DNA of 43,391 nt, taken from NCBI GenBank assembly GCA_018969385.1, contig JAGWYL010000006.1:1-43391 (forward strand), written 5' to 3'. The translations under genes and the position numbers were made by a program. Below the pieces are notes generated by a model, which was given only the letters and a program-made list of their open reading frames with translations, did not search any database and was not told the origin of the DNA. This DNA is from Patescibacteria group bacterium. Its GTDB lineage: Bacteria; Patescibacteriota; Minisyncoccia; Phycocordibacterales; Phycocordibacteraceae. This document shows positions 21,915 to 43,127 of this stretch, piece by piece. Position 1 is the first letter of the stretch; each line of letters starts with the position of its first letter.

Positions 21915-22046
21915 GCCCGCACACTCAATCTCGCATGCTTCGCATGCCGTCACGAGTTATGAGTGCCATACGCACTGGCGCTCTTCTCAACCGACTTACT
22001 TAAGCGGATACATTGAGGCGAAGCATGCGAGATTGAGTGTGCGGGC
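21915..22046. repeat. Inverted-repeat element, GCCCGCACACT family, copy 2
   Basis: Perfect 29-nt terminal inverted repeats (21915-21943 and 22018-22046) flank a 74-nt centre with no ORF. The outer end GCCCGCACACT is shared with copies at 8568 and 41537. The right end directly abuts the -35 box of the leuA leader promoter. Size and structure resemble a MITE-like or REP-like palindromic element. Confidence 0.85.
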
Positions 22047-22075
22047 TTGACCGCGCGGGGCGCGGATGCTTAACT
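22047..22075 (+). promoter_or_regulatory. Promoter of the leuA leader
   Basis: TTGACC, a 17-nt spacer and TTAACT, ending 9 nt before the leader ATG. It has the same build as the promoter at 20629. Confidence 0.75.
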
Positions 22076-22084
22076 TCTTCCTAC

Positions 22085-22159
22085 ATGCATACACGGACGG
22101 CAAAGCTTCTTGACCTTCTTCTTACGCCCACGCAAGGTGGAGGTCCAGCCCGTGTCTAG
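22085..22159 (+). CDS. leuL: Leucine-rich leader peptide upstream of leuA
   Basis: A 24-codon ORF containing KLLDLLLTP: five Leu codons, all CTT, within six positions, then Gly/Pro-rich codons and TAG. Leu runs of this kind are the classic sensor in leu attenuators of enterobacteria, where ribosome stalling at Leu codons switches on the biosynthetic gene. Here the next gene is leuA, 2-isopropylmalate synthase, which strongly supports the role. The gene symbol is by analogy only. Translation would start at or near the transcript's 5' end. Confidence 0.75.
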   Translation: MHTRTAKLLDLLLTPTQGGGPARV

Positions 22160-22243
22160 GTTCTAAGGAAATAGATACGAACAGGCCCTCCACACGGAGG
22201 GCCTTGACGTTGTGTAACCCCGTGCGAAAGGCCGTTCTTTCGC
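22136..22243 (+). promoter_or_regulatory. leuA attenuation region with alternative stems
   Basis: The hairpin AGGCCCTCC/GGAGGGCCT (22183-22204) competes with pairing of GTGGAGG (22137-22143, in the leader ORF) to CCTCCAC (22187-22193). A second hairpin GCGAAAG/CTTTCGC (22224-22243) is followed by TCTTT. No long T tract follows the first stem, so control could be transcriptional or at the leuA ribosome-binding site. Confidence 0.55.
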
Positions 22244-22270
22244 TCTTTGAAAACCGAAGGAGGAAGTATC

Positions 22271-23818
<1,548 letters not shown>

Positions 23819-42819: not shown

Positions 42820-43121
42820 TCCGGTGTAGCTCAATGGTAGAGCAGCGCCCTGTGGCTTACGCAGCTTTCCGGAGGAATCCGGATCGAATAACGAGGTGAA
42901 TTCGGGGAAGCCCCACCGCGAGAAGCGCGGGTAATCCCGAGCCAAGCCCGAAGCGCAATCTTTGGGAAGGTGTAGAGACTATTCCGAAAGGAAGTAGCCC
43001 CGACGCACGGTCGAGGCGAAGCGCCCCGCATCGAGAACCGATGATGATATAGTCCATCCCTTTAGGAAACTTTAGGATAAATGTAAGGCGTTGGTTGTAG
43101 GTTCGAGTCCTACCGCCGGAG
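42820..43121 (+). tRNA. tRNA-Asn(GUU) interrupted by a group I intron
   Basis: Exons are 42820-42853 (34 nt) and 43084-43121 (38 nt). Joined, they give acceptor TCCGGTG/CGCCGGA, D-arm GCTC/GAGC, anticodon stem GCGCC/GGCGT, loop CTGTTAA (anticodon GTT), T-arm GTAGG/CCTAC and discriminator G, as expected for tRNA-Asn. CCA is not encoded. Read without the intron removed, no tRNA folds. The intron lies between anticodon bases 35 and 36. A terminator follows directly. Confidence 0.93.
42854..43083 (+). ncRNA. Group I self-splicing intron, IC3-like, 230 nt
   Basis: The conserved core is present in order: P element AATTCGGGGAAGCC (42899-42912), Q CCGAGCCAAGC, R GGTGTAGAGACTA and S GATATAGTCC. These closely resemble bacterial tRNA introns of subgroup IC3. 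P1 forms between the exon end CTGTG and CGCAG with the U-G wobble at the splice site. The loop bases CTTA can form P10 with the 3' exon TAAG. The intron ends with G. There is no endonuclease ORF. Confidence 0.92.
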
Positions 43122-43127
43122 CAAGAT

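Follow-up and report, generated by a model that had tools for sequence, protein, structure and literature searches.

The leader upstream of leuA in the window (the whole 43,391-nt stretch of DNA analysed here, contig C31 of its draft genome) very probably represents a ribosome-mediated, leucine-sensing transcription attenuator and belongs to a family of leaders that recurs across the order (Table 1). The genome comprises 757,562 bases in 32 contigs with a completeness of 92.6%, and genome sizes across the order range from 0.4 to 1.1 Mb, which suggests a place within Patescibacteria/CPR. An earlier, sequence-only reading of this DNA had proposed that leucine attenuation operates upstream of leuA, a logic that is supported by recurrence of the leader in relatives, by covariation and by the spacing of the promoter. 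Its remark that no other leucine genes lie in the window can be extended to the draft genome as a whole, in which no match to the Iso_dh family (leuB) or the Aconitase family (leuC) is detected at that level of completeness. The LeuA protein encoded in the window is full-length.

Table 1. Positions of the leader elements and leuA in the window.
Feature	Position	Strand	Remarks
Promoter-like boxes TTGACC (22047-22052), 17 nt, TTAACT (22070-22075)	22047..22075	+	-10 to ATG spacing as in family leaders
Leader ORF, 24 codons, MHTRTAKLLDLLLTPTQGGGPARV; start ATG 22085, stop TAG 22157-22159	22085..22159	+	predicted leaderless or nearly so
Regulatory codons CTT CTT GAC CTT CTT CTT	22106..22123	+	unique in genome
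Segment 1, GACCTTC, pairing with 22139-22145 (GGAGGTC) as protector hairpin 1:2	22112..22118	+	minimum-energy fold
Segment 2, 5′ strand of antiterminator, GTGGAGGTCCAGCCCGTGTCTA	22137..22158	+	complementarity; covariation in 30 sequences
Segment 3, 3′ strand of antiterminator, TAGATACGAACAGGCCCTCCAC	22172..22193	+	complementarity; covariation
Terminator-like hairpin 3:4, AGGCCCTCC-ACAC-GGAGGGCCT	22183..22204	+	dG -18.6; poor T-tract
boxA-like element, GCTCTTTGAAAAC	22242..22254	+	role hypothetical; single copy in genome
Shine-Dalgarno of leuA, AAGGAGG	22257..22263	+	sequence
leuA, 2-isopropylmalate synthase, 515 aa, with allosteric domain	22271..23818	+	alphaproteobacterial affinity

CTT occupies codons 8, 9, 11, 12, and 13 of the leader ORF, giving five leucines in six positions, and the encoded amino acid is that of the pathway to which the downstream gene belongs. 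Of the genome's 2564 ATG-initiated ORFs of 15-40 codons, no other contains five or more Leu within six codons, a density reached by 3 of 12254 short ORFs in block-shuffled genomes. Genome-wide, leucine is encoded by CTC in 50% of cases and by CTT in 25%, and five CTT out of five has a probability of about 0.001 from codon usage alone. The coordinates, the CTT count and the rarity of the run thus bear out the earlier description of a Leu-rich 24-codon ORF placed after a promoter, and its all-CTT composition does stand out in a CTC-preferring genome. In the protector hairpin the run contributes to segment 1, and it is also complementary to the leuA Shine-Dalgarno sequence.

The leader ATG lies 9 nt downstream of the -10 box of a promoter-like sequence, which a consensus promoter scan applying a stricter rule does not list. 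A distance of 6-9 nt between -10 and ATG combined with a good promoter match is found in 30 of 38 family leaders, compared with 10.5% in shuffled sequences; from this conserved spacing the transcripts of the family are predicted to be leaderless or nearly so, and it argues against a transcription start downstream of the leader ORF. Adjoining the -35 box is the right arm of a perfect 29-nt inverted repeat (arms 21915-21943 and 22018-22046, separated by 74 nt), which occurs once in the genome.

The 208-nt leader folds 3.4 standard deviations better than shuffled sequences and can form the mutually exclusive pairings 1:2, 2:3, and 3:4. The sequence-only reading had noted that GTGGAGG (22137-22143) could pair with the left arm of the following hairpin, and this heptamer is indeed exactly complementary to CCTCCAC (22187-22193), as part of the longer, 22-nt complementarity that constitutes antiterminator 2:3. 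The hairpin that was noted in front of leuA is stable, but it does not qualify as a strong terminator, since the sequence downstream of it (TGACGTTG) holds three T in eight nucleotides, the poorest T-tract among relatives with a well-delimited hairpin; a terminator scan found nothing, whereas most relatives possess T-tract terminators. Termination is the weak step in the window.

In the mechanism that we infer from these elements, transcription would start at most a few bases away from the leader AUG and the ribosome would load at the extreme 5′ end of the transcript. When charged tRNA-Leu is scarce, the ribosome would stall on the CUU codons and cover segment 1, upon which segments 2 and 3 would pair, hairpin 3:4 would be blocked and RNA polymerase would continue into leuA. 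When leucine is plentiful, a ribosome at the stop codon would cover segment 2, leaving segment 3 to pair with segment 4, and transcription would end. Folding with a masked ribosome footprint (A-site -15 to +13), for a transcript ending before segment 4, yields a probability of 1.00 for pairing 2:3 whichever of the five Leu codons the ribosome occupies, falling only to about 0.54 once it has passed the Leu run, so that stalling at the Leu codons is predicted to change the folding, as had been proposed. In most of 13 leaders to which ribosome masking was applied the switch lies near the end of the leader's own Leu run; L082, L100, and L113 show weak contrast to shuffled sequences. When segment 4 is included, equilibrium folding of the window leader favours 3:4 in every ribosome state (0.90-0.98), and the switch would therefore need co-transcriptional kinetics.

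A Leu-rich leader followed by a hairpin, in most cases with a T-tract, can also be detected before the leuA genes of further members of the phylum, including MRGTTASGSLLALLLMKGRGACAA (L082), MIKSLLLGLLLATDCGRFTRA (L111), and MSTQLGLLLLLLLMAEERLRA (L100). No leader was seen by eye at other leuA loci of the phylum, such as L087, L089, L091, and L108, and at twelve leader-bearing leuA loci no leuB, leuC, or leuD was recognised by eye among the longest downstream reading frames. For a possible link in L082 between the ORF preceding leuA and the gene that follows it, Pfam gave no support. Nine leuA leaders of the phylum, the window being left out, were aligned (A1) and used to build model R1, which is sequence-only since the RNAalifold consensus of this first alignment contained no pairs. 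Across 228 kb, R1 has a single match, the window leader (E 8.6e-6), and this is also its sole match in the whole of the genome that carries the window, where a custom scan for further attenuators gave no convincing candidate. At E 0.01 the model matches 50 of 397 genomes of the order, compared with 5 that carry leuA of the window type; at E 0.001, matches occur in 3 of 152 genomes at class level and 5 of 153 at phylum level, the window's own genome being counted in both. One locus (L113) has two tandem Leu-rich leaders, each followed by a hairpin, before a single leuA-like gene.

Thirty loci of the order were collected, including the L082 and L083 leaders; the counts given here cover the remaining 28, which were read individually. 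Nearly all of these have a leader ORF containing a run of Leu or Ile codons, and in most the ORF carries a GGG- or GGD-type tail. At some loci the identity of the next gene is doubtful or the gene falls outside the sequence retrieved. At 7 of the 28 the next gene encodes, by reading, a PRK03739-type LeuA, a class other than that of the window, confirmed by NCBIfam for L173, and leaders with Ile codons precede citramalate synthase (MKSRTAIIISGIIIPSERGGLACVR) and threonine dehydratase (MKANSFHQPNMISIIIIQLSGGGFICV), so that Leu leaders before LeuA and Ile leaders before these two enzymes match codon to function. Most of the remaining leaders precede short or unidentified ORFs, several of them encoding short proteins without a Pfam match. 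Directly behind the Leu leader of L187 (G343:C19) is a stand-alone LeuA_dimer allosteric domain of 115 aa (PF08502, E 2e-22). The Leu leaders of L177, L179, L189, and L190 are followed by mutually similar orphan proteins of 75-98 aa with a MIS start and a conserved P-x-W end, for which profile comparison with the LeuA allosteric domain gives a probability of 7.5% only. At a further locus (L112), a leader rich in Ile codons (MTLINKQQNIIISIIISRGILSCRSV) precedes the gene for a LeuA-like protein (37% identity), which suggests that this gene may encode a citramalate synthase.

The pairing of segments 2 and 3 was assessed in arm-only alignments (A3, A5), with the inter-arm stretch replaced by an artificial AACAAA linker. 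The arms were delimited by pattern matching or manually, in sequences that share ancestry, which makes register slides a fairer control than shuffles. Across 30 arm pairs, 83.2% of cells are paired, compared with 77.4% after shuffling and 34-51% when the register is slid; 12 pairs and 42 cells are changed on both sides, and covariation is 0.258 versus 0.159. The antiterminator is thus conserved by covariation in these linker-joined alignments. Segment 2 is kept while its reading frame differs (GGT GGA GGT in the order, GCG GAA GGG in L100 and L101), implying that the RNA rather than the peptide is conserved. A comparison with relatives had been put forward in the sequence-only reading as the check to be made, and the Leu run, the alternative pairing and the hairpin all recur before leuA in the phylum; absence of conservation and a transcription start downstream of the leader ORF, which it had named as grounds for abandoning the proposal, were both looked at computationally and neither was found.

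Of 34 family members, 26 have a KNTCTTT motif after the hairpin, compared with 6.5% expected, and in many of them boxA-like letters come after the motif. Some of these motifs are part of the T-tract, for which reason the boxA reading is hypothetical; the element may recruit antitermination factors. A comparison with the boxA of the genome's own rRNA found no rRNA motif in the draft.

The poor T-tract in the window raises the question of whether the leader is a relic, that is, a former attenuator decaying after leuA was replaced by an alphaproteobacterial gene or after the T-tract was lost, with leuA expressed constitutively. The window leader is also the lowest-scoring of the aligned first-hit family members (23.3 bits), and leuA stands alone in the draft. 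This is nevertheless unlikely: the elements of the switch are all intact, with an uninterrupted ORF, five Leu codons and both alternative helices, and modest T-tracts are also found in same-genus L196 and in the related L184 and L187. A weak T-tract may be typical of GC-rich members of the family.

A weak terminator would also fit control at the level of translation, in which the Leu run pairs with the leuA Shine-Dalgarno sequence, much as in the LEU element of Actinobacteria with its base stem, and translation of the leader frees or hides that sequence. In that element, leuA is preceded by a leader ORF whose Leu run can base-pair with the leuA Shine-Dalgarno sequence, and a pseudoknot with a base stem is thought to act in a manner other than classical attenuation (PMC1262725). 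The likeness extends to the window, where CTTCTTCTT and the leuA Shine-Dalgarno sequence can form 8 bp (-12.0 kcal/mol). This pairing is, however, absent from the minimum-energy fold, the predicted exposure of the Shine-Dalgarno sequence is low in all ribosome states (0.06-0.28), and CT-rich Leu runs are generally somewhat complementary to Shine-Dalgarno sequences. Most members of the window family, unlike the LEU element, have T-tract hairpins and the antiterminator covaries, and the chance that translational control explains the leader appears slim.

LeuA of the window groups with the alphaproteobacterial L002 and L003 (support 100/99), and window-type leuA is found in 1 of 105 genomes of the family, namely this one. 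Leu-rich ORFs lie upstream of most of the alphaproteobacterial leuA genes retrieved, and the Leu run plus T-P of the window leader recalls some of these (L045), as would be expected if the attenuator had arrived together with leuA from an alphaproteobacterium. Such a donor-derived leader is very improbable and was rejected, given that R1 matches none of 17 alphaproteobacterial-type leuA loci tested, the closest LeuA relatives L002 and L003 included, and that the stretch after the stop codon matches that of L111, a locus from the same class (score 42, compared with at most 24 for shuffles). In addition, the leader of same-genus L196 (MQRRQNLLGLLLTTNGGGFGRV) precedes a gene other than leuA, and the alphaproteobacterial ORFs, which are alike in being short and Leu-rich, in preceding leuA and in belonging to the same LeuA lineage, differ in that their Leu run mostly lies near the stop (LLLLxxP*). 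The classic leu leader logic proposed for the window is supported as to mechanism, but the leader is not a proteobacterial copy brought in with leuA. LeuA of L082, another genome of the order, groups with Geminicoccaceae (100/100), and the two placements together imply at least two separate alphaproteobacterial acquisitions of leuA in the order. A T-box or other known structured RNA acting without a leader peptide, which an amino-acid gene preceded by competing hairpins might bring to mind, is hardly credible, as Rfam gives only two chance-level matches on the opposite strand of the window leader up to E 10, no match at gathering score (T-box and leucine leader included), and only tRNAs at eleven other leader-bearing loci.

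Ribosome-mediated transcription attenuation is a known kind of regulation, and is exemplified by the enterobacterial leuABCD operon, where the position of the ribosome on a Leu-rich leader ORF selects between terminator and antiterminator through 1:2, 2:3, and 3:4 pairings. The window leader shares the Leu-rich ORF and the alternative pairings with this system but differs in being predicted leaderless, in preceding a lone leuA, in having a boxA-like motif after the hairpin and a poor U-tract, and in lacking an Rfam match. Actinobacterial cys leader peptides are likewise encoded by an ORF rich in codons for the relevant amino acid upstream of a biosynthetic operon, without conserved terminator hairpins (PMC1262725); they concern a different amino acid and phylum. 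A partial search of the literature on CPR, Patescibacteria, and Parcubacteria found no description of leader peptides or attenuation, and an earlier description is possible. An RNA switch recurring before leucine- and isoleucine-related genes seems to be undescribed in this order, and what is new lies in the lineage, the leaderless start, the boxA-like element and the separate histories of leader and enzyme. There is about an even chance that the leaders, as leaderless leader-peptide attenuators, make up a family so far undescribed and specific to the phylum, in which a conserved antiterminator RNA is combined with exchangeable regulatory codons (Leu, Ile) and cargo. Such a family would place LeuA of different origin, twice acquired separately from alphaproteobacteria in the order, under a native leader, would extend its control to a stand-alone LeuA allosteric domain and to small orphan proteins, and may use the boxA-like element to recruit antitermination factors.

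The reduced genome sizes across the order are suggestive of bacteria that depend on a host and synthesise little themselves, and that many of these genomes carry an amino-acid-sensing switch, at times ahead of a lone leuA or of a gene for a small orphan protein, would indicate that leucine and isoleucine supply is monitored. The lone leuA poses the question of what purpose an isolated 2-isopropylmalate synthase serves. For uncultured genomes, the leader family offers a sequence handle on amino-acid-responsive genes. It also allows attenuation that begins at a leaderless ORF to be compared between genomes, and the window provides an example of a regulatory leader and a downstream enzyme with different histories.

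Elsewhere in the window, a tRNA gene that could encode tRNA-Asn(GTT), judged by reading of its loop, is interrupted by an intron; ARAGORN lists no tRNA-Asn(GTT) elsewhere in the draft genome. The intron belongs to group I (RF00028, 62.3 bits; 42842-43076), and the tRNA halves that it splits lie at about 42823-42856 and 43085-43122 (TCCGGTGTAGCTC... and ...CGCCGGAGCA).
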